This document shows positions 12,976 through 18,821 of a DNA stretch of 33,831 nt, in pieces; the first letter of the stretch is position 1; each line of letters opens with the position of its first letter. A program made the translations under genes and the position numbers. The DNA comes from Bacteroidaceae bacterium. GTDB taxonomy: Bacteria; Bacteroidota; Bacteroidia; Bacteroidales; Bacteroidaceae. The stretch is from NCBI GenBank assembly GCA_017615245.1, contig JAGAAL010000051.1, forward strand, positions 1 to 33,831, read 5' to 3'. Under the pieces are notes generated by a model, which saw only the letters and a list, made by a program, of their open reading frames with translations, was not told the DNA's origin and made no database searches.

Positions 12976-13053
12976 TTTTTCGCTTTTTTACACCTTATTA
13001 TTATAATAGAGGGCACAATAAAAATGGGTTAGTTGCGTTATTGTATACAAATA

Positions 13054-13863
13054 ATGTCGAATATTATGAGTATCTTCCTCAACATTCTCAAAGGTTTGGC
13101 CATGTTGCTTGTCACAATCCTGATTCTTCTGTTCTGGATTAATGACTTTTATGGCTGGCTGGCTCTCGTTTTCGGTTGTTTGATATTTATTCCTGCAATC
13201 ATCGCGGCAATCGTCATTATGATCCGTTCCAGAAAGATGGCAAACAAGAGCCAAAAGTTCTTCCTTGCTTGGGGAATACTCAATGTCGTGTTCCTCGTTG
13301 CTTATTTCCTGTTTTGGCATCCCAAACAGCAATGCAATGCAGACATCATGGCTGAACACTATGAAAAGCATGCAAAGGAGATGGAGGATTTCATTTCGTA
13401 TCTTGACAATGCCTTGGACGACAGCGTTGCAGTGCGTTTGGAATTTGAGTATGGGAAAGCTACGATGTTCCATGTTGCAGCCAAAGGCGATTCCCTGATG
13501 TCTACCCATTGGGGTGATGCTGAGGAGAAGAAGGATTCGCTGATGAGCGTGGTTGGACTTACCCGGACGGAGTACGATCAGATACGTGATAACCTTCGTT
13601 CATTAGGTTGCATAGGTGTAGAAAGAACAACCTTTCCAGACATAAACTGGACCGTGATTTATTTCCGTCGGAGTGGAATGGGCATGTATAGCTTCTATCT
13701 ATTTGACAAACCCATGAGCCAGAAAGACAAAGATTACTATATGAACGACTATTCCTGTGTTCCATATAACGAAAAGGTCGTTTTTATTTATGGAGGAGGT
13801 GCTTTTTTGAGTGACAGATTCCCAGGAAAGGATGATTTCCTCAAGAAACATAAACCTTGGTGA
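13054..13863 (+). CDS. Hypothetical membrane protein with three N-terminal transmembrane helices
   Basis: I do not recognise this 269-aa protein. Hydrophobic segments at about residues 7-27, 32-52 and 68-86 are likely membrane helices, with basic residues (RSRKMANKSQK) between the second and third. The remaining about 180 residues form a soluble domain with two helical stretches (EHYEKHAKEMEDFISYLDNAL and DSLMSVVGLTRTEYDQIRDNL) and strands with the pattern WTVIYFRRSGMGMYSFYLFD. The frame extends to a TTG at 13033; ATG 13054 is preferred and ATG 13066 is also possible. No consensus promoter is seen upstream. The stop is only 6 nt from the stop of the convergent HU-like gene, with no room for a terminator. 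Base composition is like that of the neighbours. Confidence 0.72.
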   Translation: MSNIMSIFLNILKGLAMLLVTILILLFWINDFYGWLALVFGCLIFIPAIIAAIVIMIRSRKMANKSQKFFLAWGILNVVFLVAYFLFWHPKQQCNADIMAEHYEKHAKEMEDFISYLDNALDDSVAVRLEFEYGKATMFHVAAKGDSLMSTHWGDAEEKKDSLMSVVGLTRTEYDQIRDNLRSLGCIGVERTTFPDINWTVIYFRRSGMGMYSFYLFDKPMSQKDKDYYMNDYSCVPYNEKVVFIYGGGAFLSDRFPGKDDFLKKHKPW

Positions 13864-13869
13864 TTCATT

Positions 13870-14526
13870 TCATTCCTTCTTCACCCACACTTTGTACGAA
13901 CGCGAGCCTTGCTCGGCGATGCCTGACTGAGGGTCGGCAGTTATGCGTTTCAGGTCGGCAGAGGCAGACGAACGACACAGTCCTGTGGCACTCACGTATT
14001 CTGTGAAGGTCATTTGGCCTTTCCGTTCGATGATTCCCTTTGCTATTGCCAACCGTTCCTCTTGCGTGTAGGGATTCTTCTGAGGCGTTCTCACCTTCTT
14101 GGCCATACGGGTGAACTCGGCATGCTCATTCATCGCCTTCAGCAACTGAGGGTCGGGTTTGAAGTTGATGCCCTTGATGCACACATGCCTGTACTTCTCC
14201 TTTGGATTCTTTGCTTTTGACGTTTTCCCGTTTTTCGCGTTCTCCTGTTCCGATGGTGTATTCGTGTCGAAGCCAAGTGAGAGCGAGAAGACGCCAAGAC
14301 CGTCGATTTTGATGCTGTGACCTTCTGGCATCCAGTTTGCCATCGTCATAATCAAGGTGTCGAACACCCCTTTCATCATACCCTCGCTGAACGTCCCGGC
14401 ATAACTGTGCATCTTCTTCAGCAGTGCCTCATAGTCCTGCAGGTTATACGTCTGCATCTTTGGGTACAACACTTTTTTACCATTCGTCAGCTCCTCTGGG
14501 AGCGCTTGTAAGATATATCCTGCCAT
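13870..14526 (-). CDS. HU-like DNA-binding protein with C-terminal putative winged helix
   Basis: The 218-aa protein has two parts. Residues about 1-130 resemble the Bacteroidota HU/IHF-like fold: a helical stretch (LQDYEALLKKMHSYAGTFSEG) is followed by the two-strand signature GHSIKIDGLGVFSLSLGF (about 69-86) and a basic linker rich in Lys and Asn that may be the DNA-contacting arm. Residues about 153-216 look like a winged helix-turn-helix: helix EERLAIAKGIIERKG, then TFTEYVSATGLCRSSASADL (173-192, the likely turn and recognition helix) and the wing GIAEQGSRSYKVWVKK. HU-family proteins bend and organise DNA; the extra HTH suggests sequence-specific binding. Its leader carries four 21-bp-spaced palindromes (14589-14666) below a strong promoter, suggesting autoregulation. 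This role is inferred. Confidence 0.78.
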   Translation of the reverse strand: MAGYILQALPEELTNGKKVLYPKMQTYNLQDYEALLKKMHSYAGTFSEGMMKGVFDTLIMTMANWMPEGHSIKIDGLGVFSLSLGFDTNTPSEQENAKNGKTSKAKNPKEKYRHVCIKGINFKPDPQLLKAMNEHAEFTRMAKKVRTPQKNPYTQEERLAIAKGIIERKGQMTFTEYVSATGLCRSSASADLKRITADPQSGIAEQGSRSYKVWVKKE

Positions 14527-14588
14527 CTCTTCCGAAATTTTTTGTTTGATTACTACTTTTTTGTTCTTACTCCTAAGTCTGTTTCTTG

Positions 14589-14666
14589 TTCGTGGCCCGC
14601 GAACCTGTGTTCGCCGCCCACGAATCCAGGTTTGCCGACCGCGAATCAGTGTTCGTCGCCCACGAA
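14589..14666. promoter_or_regulatory. Operator-like array: four palindromes at exact 21-bp spacing
   Basis: Four 15-bp imperfect palindromes are at 14589-14603 (TTCGTGGCCCGCGAA), 14610-14624 (TTCGCCGCCCACGAA), 14631-14645 (TTTGCCGACCGCGAA) and 14652-14666 (TTCGTCGCCCACGAA). Starts differ by exactly 21 bp, two helical turns, so all sites face the same side of the DNA. The 6-bp spacers vary (CCTGTG, TCCAGG, TCAGTG). The consensus is TTCGnSGnCCnCGAA. The array lies just downstream of the promoter at 14684 and 63-140 nt upstream of the HU-like gene's start. Confidence 0.85.
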
Positions 14667-14683
14667 CAACATTTTTCCCTCTG

Positions 14684-14714
14684 CAAAGATATAAAATCTT
14701 CCAGACCCCACAAA
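14684..14714 (-). promoter_or_regulatory. Promoter of the HU-like gene
   Basis: On the minus strand TTTG (14714-14711), a 19-nt spacer and TATCTTTG (14691-14684) form a full-consensus Bacteroidota promoter. Transcription would start about 14677, immediately before the palindrome array. Confidence 0.82.
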
Positions 14715-14721
14715 ATAAAAC

Positions 14722-14916: not shown

Positions 14917-14996
14917 ACATACTCCTCAGTCACTGCGTGACAGCTCCCCTATCTTAGGGGAGCAGCTAGTTAGCAAGACTTAGAGGAGGAGTATGT
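14917..14996. repeat. Nested cruciform element in the purL leader
   Basis: An 11-bp perfect outer stem (ACATACTCCTC 14917-14927 with GAGGAGTATGT 14986-14996) encloses two hairpins: GTCAC/GTGAC (14929-14941, 3-nt loop) and the 9-bp GCTCCCCTA/TAGGGGAGC (14943-14963, 3-nt loop). As RNA it would form a three-way or four-way junction in the purL leader. Confidence 0.75.
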
Positions 14997-15003
14997 ATAC
15001 AGA

Positions 15004-15098
15004 GCTCTCCTCCTAAGATAGGGGGTTTCTGTCCCCCGATAACGGGGGAACCGAAGGGGGTGTAAAGACCATTGAAACCCCGAAGGGGGGAGGGAGTA
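15004..15098. repeat. GC-rich hairpin repeat cluster (copy e) in the purL leader
   Basis: Contains CTCCTCCTAAGATAGGGGG, the hairpin TCCCCCG/CGGGGGA with loop ATAA (15032-15049), and two further G-runs (CCGAAGGGGG, CCCCGAAGGGGGGAGGG). The CCTAAGATAGG sequence echoes CCTATCTTAGG inside the neighbouring cruciform. Related to copies a-d. Confidence 0.65.
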
Positions 15099-15140: not shown

Positions 15141-18100
15141 ATGATTTACTTTTTCATTACGCCGCAGAACAGCATCATCGCCGTGAGTATGAATCATGAA
15201 ATCAGCTCGAAGGAGACGGATGCACTTCAGTGGCTTTTCAGTGGCGCACAGAAGCGCGACGAGCAGACAATTGGTGGTTTGTTTGCTGGCCCTCGTCGTG
15301 AGATGATTACTCCTTGGAGTACCAACGCTGTGGAGATTACCCAGAACATGGGTTTGACAGGCATCGAGCGTATAGAGGAGTTCTTTCCTATTGACAAAGA
15401 TGCAGACATCGACCCGATGCTGCAGCGCAGATACGAGGAACTGAACCAGCAGATTTTCACCGTCAACATCGAGCCGGCTGCCATCCAGCATATCGACAAT
15501 TTGGAGGAATACAACGAACAGGAAGGTTTGGCACTGAGTCCGGAGGAGATTGAATACCTGCATAAAGTAGAGGGACAGTTGGGACGTAAGCTTACTGACT
15601 CTGAGGTATTCGGCTTTGCACAAATCAACTCTGAGCATTGTCGCCACAAGATATTCGGCGGCACCTTCATCATCGACGGCAAGGAGAAGGAGAGTAGCCT
15701 TTTCCAGATGATTAAGAAAACCACGCAGGAGAACCCTAACAAAATTATCTCTGCGTATAAAGATAATGTGGCATTCGCACAAGGTCCTGTAGTGGAGCAG
15801 TTTGCCCCTAAGGACCACAGCACCAGCGACTATTTCCAGACGAAGGACATCGAATCAGTCATCTCGCTGAAGGCAGAGACGCATAACTTCCCTACTACCG
15901 TAGAGCCGTTCAACGGTGCTGCGACGGGTACTGGAGGTGAGATTCGCGACCGTATGGGTGGTGGAACTGGTTCGTGGCCGATTGCAGGAACTGCTGTCTA
16001 TATGACAAGCTACCGCAACGGCGAGCATCCTCGTCATTGGCTCTATCAGACACCTGAGCAGATACTGATTAAGGCTTCGAACGGTGCCAGCGACTTTGGT
16101 AACAAGTTCGGACAGCCGCTGATTTGCGGTTCTGTGCTGACATTCGAGCATCAAGAGAAGCAGAAGGGTGAACCGCTCTATGGCTACGATAAAGTCATCA
16201 TGTTGGCTGGTGGTGTAGGTTATGGCACCAAGCGCGACTGTCTGAAGGGTGAACCTCAGAAGGGAAACAAGATTGTCGTGGTGGGTGGTGATAACTACCG
16301 TATCGGATTGGGCGGCGGAAGTGTCAGCTCTGTTGATACAGGTCGTTACTCGAGCGGCATCGAGCTGAATGCCGTTCAGCGTGCCAACCCAGAGATGCAG
16401 AAACGTGCCAATAACCTGGTGCGTGCTCTTTGTGAGGAAGATGTGAACCCTATCGTCTCTATCCACGATCACGGTAGCGCAGGACATGTGAACTGCCTGA
16501 GTGAGTTGGTCGAAGAGTGCGGCGGTCAGATTGATATGACGAAGTTGCCAATTGGCGACAAGACGCTGAGTTCGAAGGAAATCATCGCCAACGAGTCGCA
16601 GGAGCGTATGGGCCTCCTCATTGACGAGAAACATATAGATCATGTACGTAAGATTGCGGAACGTGAACGTGCTCCACTCTATGTGGTGGGTGAGACAACA
16701 GGCGATGCCCACTTCTCATTCCGGCAGGGCGACGGTATCCGTCCGTTCGACCTTGAAGTGTCGCAGATGTTTGGCCACTCGCCAAAGACCTATATGCGCG
16801 ACGAGACAGTGGAGCATAAGTATGCTCCAGTAGAGTACAAACTAGAAAATCTAGAAATACTAGAGTATCTGAAAAAAGTGCTCAAGCTTGAGGCTGTGGC
16901 TTGTAAGGATTGGCTGACCAACAAGGTTGACCGCTCTGTGACGGGTAAGATCGCCCGTCAGCAGTGTCAGGGTGAGTTGCAGCTGCCTCTTAGCGACTGT
17001 GGTGTGGTTGCCCTCGACTATCGTGGAAAGGCTGGTATCGCAACTGCCATCGGACATGCTCCGCAAGCAGGTTTGGCTGACCCAGCTGCTGGTAGTGTGC
17101 TTTCTGTAGCGGAATCATTGACCAACATCGTATGGGCACCATTGACAGAGGGACTTGACAGCGTAAGTCTGTCAGCAAACTGGATGTGGCCTTGTCGTAG
17201 TCAGAAAGGTGAGGATGCACGCTTGTTTGCAGGTGTGAAGGCATTGAGCGATTTCTGCCGTGCCCTTCAGGTGAACGTACCAACAGGTAAGGACTCGCTT
17301 TCAATGACGCAGAAGTATCCTGACGGCACGAAGGTCATCAGCCCGGGAACCGTGATTGTAAGTAGCGGTGGTGAGGTGAGCGACATCCGTAAGGTGGTTT
17401 CGCCAGTAGTTCAGAACGTAGATTCTGTGCTGTATCATATCGACTTCTCGTTCGACGAGCTGAGGTTGGGTGGAAGTGCCTTTGCACAGACTCAGGGAAA
17501 GGTAGGCAGCGATGTGCCCACTGTTCAGAACCCAGAGTATTTCCGTGACGCCTTCATGGCTGTGCAGGAACTGGTGAACAACGAATTGCTGTTGGCTGGT
17601 CACGACATTAGTGCAGGAGGTTTGGTGACCTGTCTGCTCGAGATGTGCTTCGCCAATACGAAGGGCGGATTGAAGGTCAACCTCGATGAAATGGGCGAAA
17701 AAGACCTCGTGAAGCGGCTGTTTGCCGAGAATCCTGCTGTTGTGATTCAGGTGGCGAAAGCCAATGTCGAACAGGTTGAAAGCATACTTGCCGATGCAGG
17801 TGTGGGCTTTGCAAAGATAGGCGAACCTATTGCTGAGCGTGTTATCAAGATTGAGGGCGCACAGGGTAACACCTTATTAAATATAGATGAGTTGCGTGAT
17901 GAGTGGTATGCCACTTCGCACGAACTCGACCGTTTGCAGAGCATGAATGGTCAAGCAGACGAACGCTTTACGAACTATAAGAACCAACCTATTGAACACA
18001 AATTCAATGCTGACTTCACAGGTACGTTTGCTCAGTATGGCATCAGTCCTGATCGTGACTCTACACCATCAGAGACACGTCCTAAGGCTGCCATCATCCG

Positions 18101-18821
18101 TGAGAAGGGTACGAACGGTGAACGCGAGATGGCTTATTGCCTCTATCTTGCAGGCTTCGACGTGAAGGACGTGATGATGACGGACCTCGTAAGCGGACGT
18201 GAGACACTCGAAGAGATACAGATGATTGTGTTCTGTGGAGGATTCTCTAACTCGGATGTGCTGGGTAGTGCAAAAGGTTGGGCAGGTGCATTCCTCTACA
18301 ATCCAAAGGCAAAACAAGCACTCGAAAACTTCTACGCTCGCAAGGACACCCTCTCGCTGGGTATCTGTAATGGCTGTCAGTTGATGATGGAACTGGGCTT
18401 GCTTGGTGTGAAAGGCAGCATGCAGCACAACATCAGTCATAAGTTCGAGAGCGCATTCCTTACACTCAGCATTCCTCAGAACGACTCCGTACTCTTCGGA
18501 TCGCTTAGCGGTAACAAACTGGGTTTGTGGGTGGCTCACGGAGAAGGCCGCTTCTCATTGCCTGACCCAGAGAGTGCTTACAACGTAGTTGCGAAGTACA
18601 ACTATCATGGTTATCCAGCCAATCCAAATGGCAGCGACTACGACATCGCAGGTATTTGTACAGCTGACGGTCGCCATCTCGCGATGATGCCCCACTTGGA
18701 GCGTGCCATCTTCCCTTGGCAGATGGGACACTATCCAGAGAATCGCAAGCACGATGATGTCACTCCATGGATTGAAGCATTCGTGAATGGACGAAAATGG
18801 TGCGAACAGCATCGAGGATAA
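15141..18821 (+). CDS. purL: Phosphoribosylformylglycinamidine synthase (FGAM synthase)
   Basis: The 1226-aa enzyme converts FGAR, glutamine and ATP to FGAM in purine synthesis. It is the large single-chain form that joins PurS-, PurL- and PurQ-like parts. The N-terminal PurS-like domain precedes the FGAM motifs FAQINSEHCRHKIFGG (about residues 152-167), SLKAETHNFPTTVEPFNGAATGTGGEIRDRMGGG split over about 240-275, and LGGGSVSS (about 392-399). The C-terminal glutaminase domain from about 975 (KAAIIREKGTNGEREMAY) carries the nucleophile Cys1076 in LGICNGCQLMMELGL, and PHLERAIFPWQMGHYPE near the end, with the His of the triad. The start agrees with the usual MIYFFITP-type N terminus. The leader of about 230 nt is full of hairpins; no purine riboswitch was recognised. 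Confidence 0.97.
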   Translation: MIYFFITPQNSIIAVSMNHEISSKETDALQWLFSGAQKRDEQTIGGLFAGPRREMITPWSTNAVEITQNMGLTGIERIEEFFPIDKDADIDPMLQRRYEELNQQIFTVNIEPAAIQHIDNLEEYNEQEGLALSPEEIEYLHKVEGQLGRKLTDSEVFGFAQINSEHCRHKIFGGTFIIDGKEKESSLFQMIKKTTQENPNKIISAYKDNVAFAQGPVVEQFAPKDHSTSDYFQTKDIESVISLKAETHNFPTTVEPFNGAATGTGGEIRDRMGGGTGSWPIAGTAVYMTSYRNGEHPRHWLYQTPEQILIKASNGASDFGNKFGQPLICGSVLTFEHQEKQKGEPLYGYDKVIMLAGGVGYGTKRDCLKGEPQKGNKIVVVGGDNYRIGLGGGSVSSVDTGRYSSGIELNAVQRANPEMQKRANNLVRALCEEDVNPIVSIHDHGSAGHVNCLSELVEECGGQIDMTKLPIGDKTLSSKEIIANESQERMGLLIDEKHIDHVRKIAERERAPLYVVGETTGDAHFSFRQGDGIRPFDLEVSQMFGHSPKTYMRDETVEHKYAPVEYKLENLEILEYLKKVLKLEAVACKDWLTNKVDRSVTGKIARQQCQGELQLPLSDCGVVALDYRGKAGIATAIGHAPQAGLADPAAGSVLSVAESLTNIVWAPLTEGLDSVSLSANWMWPCRSQKGEDARLFAGVKALSDFCRALQVNVPTGKDSLSMTQKYPDGTKVISPGTVIVSSGGEVSDIRKVVSPVVQNVDSVLYHIDFSFDELRLGGSAFAQTQGKVGSDVPTVQNPEYFRDAFMAVQELVNNELLLAGHDISAGGLVTCLLEMCFANTKGGLKVNLDEMGEKDLVKRLFAENPAVVIQVAKANVEQVESILADAGVGFAKIGEPIAERVIKIEGAQGNTLLNIDELRDEWYATSHELDRLQSMNGQADERFTNYKNQPIEHKFNADFTGTFAQYGISPDRDSTPSETRPKAAIIREKGTNGEREMAYCLYLAGFDVKDVMMTDLVSGRETLEEIQMIVFCGGFSNSDVLGSAKGWAGAFLYNPKAKQALENFYARKDTLSLGICNGCQLMMELGLLGVKGSMQHNISHKFESAFLTLSIPQNDSVLFGSLSGNKLGLWVAHGEGRFSLPDPESAYNVVAKYNYHGYPANPNGSDYDIAGICTADGRHLAMMPHLERAIFPWQMGHYPENRKHDDVTPWIEAFVNGRKWCEQHRG

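Follow-up and report, generated by a model that had tools for sequence, protein, structure and literature searches.

A 21-bp-phased palindrome array at the promoter of an HU-HIG/winged-helix gene in Bacteroidaceae, with a predicted role as the protein's own DNA site

Results and Discussion

Four Phased Palindromes in Front of an HU-HIG Gene

The window analyzed here is a whole contig (C33) of 33.8 kb from a 62%-complete Bacteroidaceae assembly. A minus-strand gene in it encodes a 218-aa protein, and the stretch separating the start codon of this gene from its predicted promoter holds four imperfect palindromes of 15 bp, spaced exactly 21 bp apart (Table 1) and positioned as the original prediction had placed them. 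The 6-bp spacers between them read CCTGTG, TCCAGG, and TCAGTG, and 6, 5, 5, and 6 of 7 arm pairs are matched in palindromes 1 to 4. The consensus proposed for all four, TTCGnSGnCCnCGAA, describes them overall, with palindrome 3 departing at one base (TTTG). The four palindromes are genuine and beyond chance: in a scan for four phased palindromes, the array gave the top 21-bp score of the window (22 of 28), above all 100 dinucleotide shuffles, the best of which reached 20, and at the other periods from 17 to 40 no score exceeded 19. The 15-mer pattern, allowing one mismatch, matches eight times in the window, seven of these inside the array, against 0.43 expected; none of 100 shuffles reached eight.

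Table 1. Features of the HU-HIG locus in window coordinates
Feature	Position	Strand	Remark
HU-HIG + winged-helix protein, 218 aa	13870..14526	-	
Winged helix, residues 151-218, three helices and two strands	13873..14076	-	Structure model, block-mean pLDDT 74-91
Predicted recognition helix, residues 185-197	13936..13974	-	
Residue 190, Ala in the window protein	13957-13959	-	Best palindrome-tracking column
HU-HIG domain, residues 7-140	14107..14508	-	PF18291, 51.4 bits; HU/IHF matches of family profile
Gene-side flank unit (minus strand AGAAACAGACTTAGGAGTAAG)	14565..14585		
Array, four 21-bp units (15-bp imperfect palindrome and 6-bp linker each), 84 bp	14586..14669		
Palindrome 1 TTCGTGGCCCGCGAA	14589..14603		
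Palindrome 2 TTCGCCGCCCACGAA	14610..14624		
Palindrome 3 TTTGCCGACCGCGAA	14631..14645		
Palindrome 4 TTCGTCGCCCACGAA	14652..14666		
Flank unit CATTTTTCCCTCTGCAAAGAT	14670..14690		21-bp register with array; overlaps -7 element
Predicted -7 element TATCTTTG	14684..14691	-	Consensus match only
Predicted -33-like element TTTTG	14711..14715	-	Consensus match only

The promoter is a consensus guess, a match of the form TTTTG-N19-TATCTTTG on the minus strand at 14715-14684; from its position, the array would begin some 11 nt past the probable start of transcription, in agreement with the original prediction. The flank unit that overlaps the -7 element is similar to flank units of the dispersed arrays described below. 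The search for further copies that the original prediction called for turned up one array only in the window's own genome, which also has a single match to the 218-aa protein at E ≤ 0.001. The convergent neighbor gene at 13033-13863 has no Pfam family above cut-off. At 14930-15090 lies an inverted-repeat-rich stretch with AGCTCCCCTATCTTAGGGGAGCAG, and a closely similar stretch precedes the HU-HIG gene in another genome (L034; L and G numbers are our handles for loci and genomes); this stretch may be another dispersed element.

An HU-HIG Protein with a C-Terminal Winged Helix

The 218-aa protein belongs to the HU-HIG family, scoring 51.4 bits against PF18291 (cut-off 26.2), and falls short of TIGR01201 (HU_rel; 48.5 bits against a curated cut-off of 68.6). 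A profile built from 22 homologues matches PDB chains of HU and IHF over profile positions ~28-118. The structure model confidently places helices at residues 155-169, 174-181, and 185-197 followed by two strands (H-H-H-E-E) within residues 151-218, which by this model are a winged helix; it was built on a shallow alignment of 3 sequences, and its HU part has pLDDT below 50. The profile matches and the model thus bear out the proposal of an HU protein with a C-terminal winged helix. The HU-HIG clade was reportedly defined by Burroughs and others in Cell Cycle in 2017. The Pfam entry for PF18291 describes an HU domain fused to a wHTH, Ig, or Gly-rich motif and thereby names the winged-helix fusion seen here, but its description holds no operator or DNA element. 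We found no described function or target of HU-HIG proteins in the parts of the open literature searched.

PADLOC profiles for anti-phage defense returned no family for the 3 proteins submitted. A phage origin was rejected: a scan of viral contigs yielded no relative, and the one phage-labelled match is weak (26.7% identity) and lacks a 21-bp array. A plasmid origin was likewise set aside. Six matches are labelled plasmid, of which three were inspected; the annotated one, from Bacteroides finegoldii, looks chromosomal because its neighbors are recA and clpB.

Arrays Upstream of Homologous Genes

Of 251 genomes searched within the family, 106 have protein matches at E ≤ 1e-8; another query at E ≤ 1e-12 found them in 142 of 399, a set that overlaps the first, and an order-wide draw gave 7 of 294. 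Each upstream region was scored for three phased palindromes at periods of 17-40 bp, and the highest-scoring period was taken as best. The first set retained near-identical species and counted one locus twice (L061/L113); one of its 123 loci had too short an upstream region. Period 21 was best in 95/122 upstream regions, against 8/122 shuffled copies. Predictions for a second set were written down before its loci were fetched; there, period 21 was best in 40/60 (67%, just under the predicted >70%; shuffled 2), and 47/60 scored at least 16. This second set includes two genes already met earlier (L167; L256 = L175), and 17 of its 61 loci come from genomes searched before. Pooled, period 21 is best in 135/182 upstream regions, against 23/358 control windows of the same loci, so that across homologues the site recurs at the protein's own promoter in the manner of an operator. 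Another period is best in the remaining 47/182, and a visible array is absent upstream of some winged-helix members (L141, L105, L100, and others). Among named species, Parabacteroides distasonis (WP_005856492.1) and B. finegoldii (WP_022275387.1) have a best period of 21, and a Phocaeicola massiliensis homologue has no clear 21-bp array. Loci L029 and L222 (too little upstream sequence), arrays scoring below 16 or 17, and proteins less than 12% apart were left out before counting.

The array goes with the winged helix. Among HU-type genes without one (ten HU-HIG-type and one plain 90-aa HU), period 21 was best in 0/11; these come from 30 comparison loci, of which 9 gave no ORF, 3 had too little upstream sequence, and 7 turned out to encode a winged helix, with a best period of 21 in 4 of the 7.

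Four units are the usual number (79/97 arrays in the first set and 35/47 in the second, 114/144 overall), three units following in 12 and 10, and a G or C stands at the palindrome center in 261/375 units. The 21-bp rhythm does not end with the palindromes: over 71 diverged arrays, the AT/GC composition of both flanks oscillates with a 21-bp period (permutation P = 5e-4). This holds past the first 42 bp as well, and power at 21.5-22 is equal to or slightly above that at 21.

Position Relative to the Promoter

Homologue promoters were assigned as consensus calls. In 23 of the 99 arrays with such a call, the array starts 13-14 bp past the -7 element, and in 52 it lies wholly upstream of it. Spacings of the upstream arrays to the -7 element cluster near 21, 35, 43, 54, and 64 bp, in a 10.5-bp register (R = 0.60, n = 37, Rayleigh p < 1e-5; R = 0.62, n = 27, p = 3e-5). 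Nine of the 37 stand off this register, at a spacing of 33-37 bp. The original prediction had the protein block its own transcription, which fits the window, with its array just downstream of the predicted promoter; given the 52 upstream arrays, blocking is not the general mode.

The same distribution bears on two readings at the RNA level that the original prediction had offered as alternatives. In the first, the palindromes would be RNA hairpins in the mRNA leader; they are able to form hairpins, and in the window and many relatives the array does lie between promoter and gene. Because arrays are found both before and after the predicted promoter, and lie wholly upstream in more than half of the cases with a promoter call, an RNA leader cannot be the general explanation. 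Strict 21-bp phasing and a helical register relative to the promoter are moreover properties of DNA, dispersed copies occur whatever the orientation of the neighboring genes, and no Rfam family matches at the array (the known RNA families of the window are three tRNAs only). We therefore hold the hairpin reading to be very improbable. The second, a short leader ORF that would run across the array (giving MLFVGDEH in the window and periodic peptides of seven codons at other loci), draws on the fact that 21 bp is seven codons: in L056 an open frame through the array, upstream of 4001, gives a 7-residue periodic peptide, and open frames are more numerous in arrays that lie downstream of the promoter than in those upstream of it (1.46 vs. 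0.96, p = 0.0045). On the reverse strand, however, frames are equally open (1.57 vs. 1.46 forward, p = 0.51), and the excess is explained by the G+C content, which differs between the groups (0.40 vs. 0.31). Of all the readings considered, the leader ORF strikes us as the least credible.

Residue 190 and the Letters of the Palindrome

The architecture is common to these genes, but the motif is not. It had been expected that homologues would carry the same phased palindrome; they carry palindromes of the same phase, with letters private to each gene. Read outward from the center, the half-site is CCACGAAC in the window, CCTGCAAC in L027, TGCTGATT in L119, CGGCGTTT in L123, and CTAAGGAT in L038. 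The protein column that best follows motif distance is residue 190 (window numbering; r = 0.36), also with HU-domain distance partialled out, and this residue falls in the third helix of the confidently modeled winged helix. Columns 184, 186, and 189 of the recognition helix rank high as well, as do 121, 9, and 10 outside it; of the 25 strongest column-position pairs, 7 are in the recognition helix, against 1.5 expected. Whole-domain distances correlate with motif distance at r = 0.22 for the HU domain and 0.18 for the helix, and the partial correlations are 0.16 for HU and 0.10 for the helix given HU (p = 0.02). Since HU distance tracks the motif equally well, shared descent explains part of the association between motif and helix.

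At residue 190 itself, the association is sharper than descent produces. In the first set, TG occupies half-site positions 3-4 in 24/29 arrays of Arg190 proteins and in 4/40 with other residues; in the second, the counts are 7/10 and 1/22 (p = 2.6e-4; 6/9 for Arg190 without L167). Pooled, they are 31/39 and 5/62, with phi = 0.73; two sets of 2000 two-state simulations each, along a tree made without the recognition helix, peaked at phi = 0.35 and 0.49. The window protein has Ala190, and its palindromes have AC at these positions.

These results also weigh on the idea that some other host factor binds the array and regulates the HU-HIG gene. Such a factor would fit with the HU domain following the motif overall no less closely than the helix, and the CCTWAGG-type palindromes that flank the arrays of G173, being unlike the core, may have another binder. 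Yet in a set of largely new loci the motif could be predicted from one residue of the gene's own recognition helix, and the association goes beyond shared descent; cores also differ among the paralogues of one genome, which a single common factor leaves unexplained; we judge this reading quite improbable. Paralogues of one genome are no more distinct in motif than matched pairs, and insulation between paralogues was dropped as an idea, as this comparison gave no sign of selection for it.

Taken together, three findings argue for recognition of the array by the protein and for an action on its own promoter at the level of DNA: the array is linked to the winged helix, its motif co-varies with residue 190, and its spacing from the promoter keeps helical register. 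The proposal that the protein binds the array through its HTH and regulates itself is thus supported in outline by sequence comparison; as a complete account it does not extend to G173, where arrays lie mostly away from the gene.

Dispersed Arrays in Relatives

Searches of G165, G137, and G207 with the core of their own array gave 29, 34, and 23 forward matches, against 2, 4, and 4 for controls. G165 has three more arrays, one of them interrupted at a contig end, and G137 and G207 have several. A complete array of exactly 84 bp was found in 12 of the 14 loci examined from these genomes, a number that includes two of the genes' own arrays, one site entered twice (L283 is the same site as L280), and two loci with a common flank at contig ends (L284 and L286). 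Flank units phased at 21 bp accompany these dispersed arrays, inverted on both sides. Two array sites are common to G165 and G137. Core matches also exceed controls in G145 (30 vs. 9) and G541 (17 vs. 5), and do not in G152 for this core (15 vs. 17) or in a further group of genomes searched; in G058 the motif is not above control genome-wide, though a second array lies 5 kb from its own one. In G137 and G207, some arrays (L281, L282, L287) stand beside or between tandem genes that we take to encode large ABC-transporter permeases.

G173, whose own array has three units, yields at least 69 core matches, against 9 for controls, and at least 15 dispersed intergenic arrays with a nearly identical core, against the one at its HU-HIG gene. 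Twelve of 15 such loci have three units, two have four, and one has two. The CCTWAGG-type palindromes flank the arrays in register, and flank similarity between copies stops ~60 bp out, pairwise identity falling from 0.94 to about 0.25-0.3. By manual reading, the genes around the 15 arrays are tandem in 8 cases, convergent in 4, and divergent in 3, which speaks against promoter control as the only role of the dispersed arrays. One G173 array lies upstream of the counterpart (84% DNA identity) of the window gene at 15141-18821, presumably purL, which adjoins the HU-HIG gene in the window; another is at a tRNA pair with a gene, by our reading a glycosyltransferase, that is also found in the window, where that site has no array. 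A neighbor of arrays in both G173 and G137 that we read as BlaI-M56 was considered as a conserved target and rejected, the proteins being only 28% identical.

The original prediction had itself named arrays lying mainly away from such genes as evidence against it, and a simple autorepressor model indeed fails in G173, because 15 dispersed arrays stand there against one at the gene. In some species, as the dispersed copies show, the function goes beyond autoregulation; these copies may be a regulon, chromosome-organizing sites, or repeats that exploit the protein. The last possibility leads to a rival reading in which the arrays would be self-copying repeats of the REP or MITE kind, scattered over the chromosome; by chance one copy would have come to lie at the HU-HIG gene, to be either recruited or just tolerated. 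The near-identical cores of the G173 copies, the end of their flank similarity ~60 bp out, and the mixed orientations of their neighbors, by which these copies are not all promoter operators, point this way, as does a complete 84-bp array at 3393-3476 of L285, which has a flank resembling the HU-HIG gene's promoter and no HU-HIG gene. Private arrays at the promoters of most winged-helix HU-HIG genes, co-varying with the protein, count against it, as does the single array of the window genome; the two sites common to G165 and G137 indicate that copies are not freely mobile, and no transposase was identified. We regard this reading as unlikely. The array flanks are inverted copies of each other, and the empty sites compared were diverged ones only (window vs. 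L294). The L285 array is possibly a site that lost or copied the promoter.

Proposed Mechanism

On balance, and with some reserve, we favor the reading that the array is a private DNA platform of the HU-HIG/winged-helix protein, on which a phased, probably wrapped complex would control the gene's own promoter, the protein also serving dispersed sites in some lineages. We infer that one protein dimer would bind each 15-bp palindrome, reading it through the winged helices, with residue 190 contacting half-site positions 3-4, and that the HU bodies would bend the array DNA. Units two helical turns apart would let the dimers stack on one face, so that the core and its 21-bp-phased flanks could be wrapped compactly over the promoter. 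With its array just downstream of the predicted promoter, the window gene would most likely be repressed by such a complex; in relatives whose array lies upstream in register with the promoter, the complex could work either through contact or by taking the promoter into the wrap. The dispersed intergenic copies of some lineages would be served by the protein as well.

A more far-reaching version, which we consider doubtful at present, is sequence-addressed chromosome packing: the protein would form a nucleosome-like wrapped complex of ~200 bp on its private array of phased palindromes with phased flanks, not only at the promoter of its gene but, in some species, also at numerous places between genes, with the letters of the sites rewritten genome-wide as the recognition helix changes.

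Relation to Known Systems

In Escherichia coli, IHF-bound RIB elements belong to REP clusters, and IHF/HU with RIB likewise pairs an HU-fold protein with intergenic repeated palindromic elements. The present protein differs in having a winged helix of its own that would read sequence, and its sites differ in being phased at 21 bp, lying at the protein's own promoter, and changing in sequence with the protein. MatP/matS, Noc, and ParB/parS each combine a dedicated DNA-binding protein with dispersed short palindromic sites; we claim no relatedness, and the present sites are instead phased arrays with a sequence private to each lineage. The BrickBuilt MITE of Porphyromonas gingivalis (PMC4596501) is also a dispersed intergenic element of tandem units in Bacteroidota, with 19 copies, always intergenic, 23-nt direct repeats, and terminal inverted repeats like those of ISPg1/ISPg9; the accessible part of that report names no protein partner, whereas the present arrays are 21-bp palindromes, usually three or four, with a putative cognate protein. 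In the same species, which is of a related order, the HU protein PG0121 is linked to an inverted-repeat DNA element, one long inverted repeat of 77 bp at a capsule locus (PMC3969353). In the parts of the open literature available to us, we found no description of such arrays, BrickBuilt, a REP survey, and PG0121 coming closest.

The array supplies each such gene with a predicted target, a predicted stoichiometry (usually four dimers), and a candidate one-residue specificity rule, and the system, found in Prevotella-related gut bacteria, would be a natural series in which a bending protein and its sites change together. The dispersed copies raise the question of whether sequence-addressed HU proteins organize the chromosome in these bacteria. 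HU-HIG proteins are expanded in gut Bacteroidales; one genome (G131) has 14 HU-HIG matches, at least 5 of them with a winged helix, a strong expansion of paralogues.
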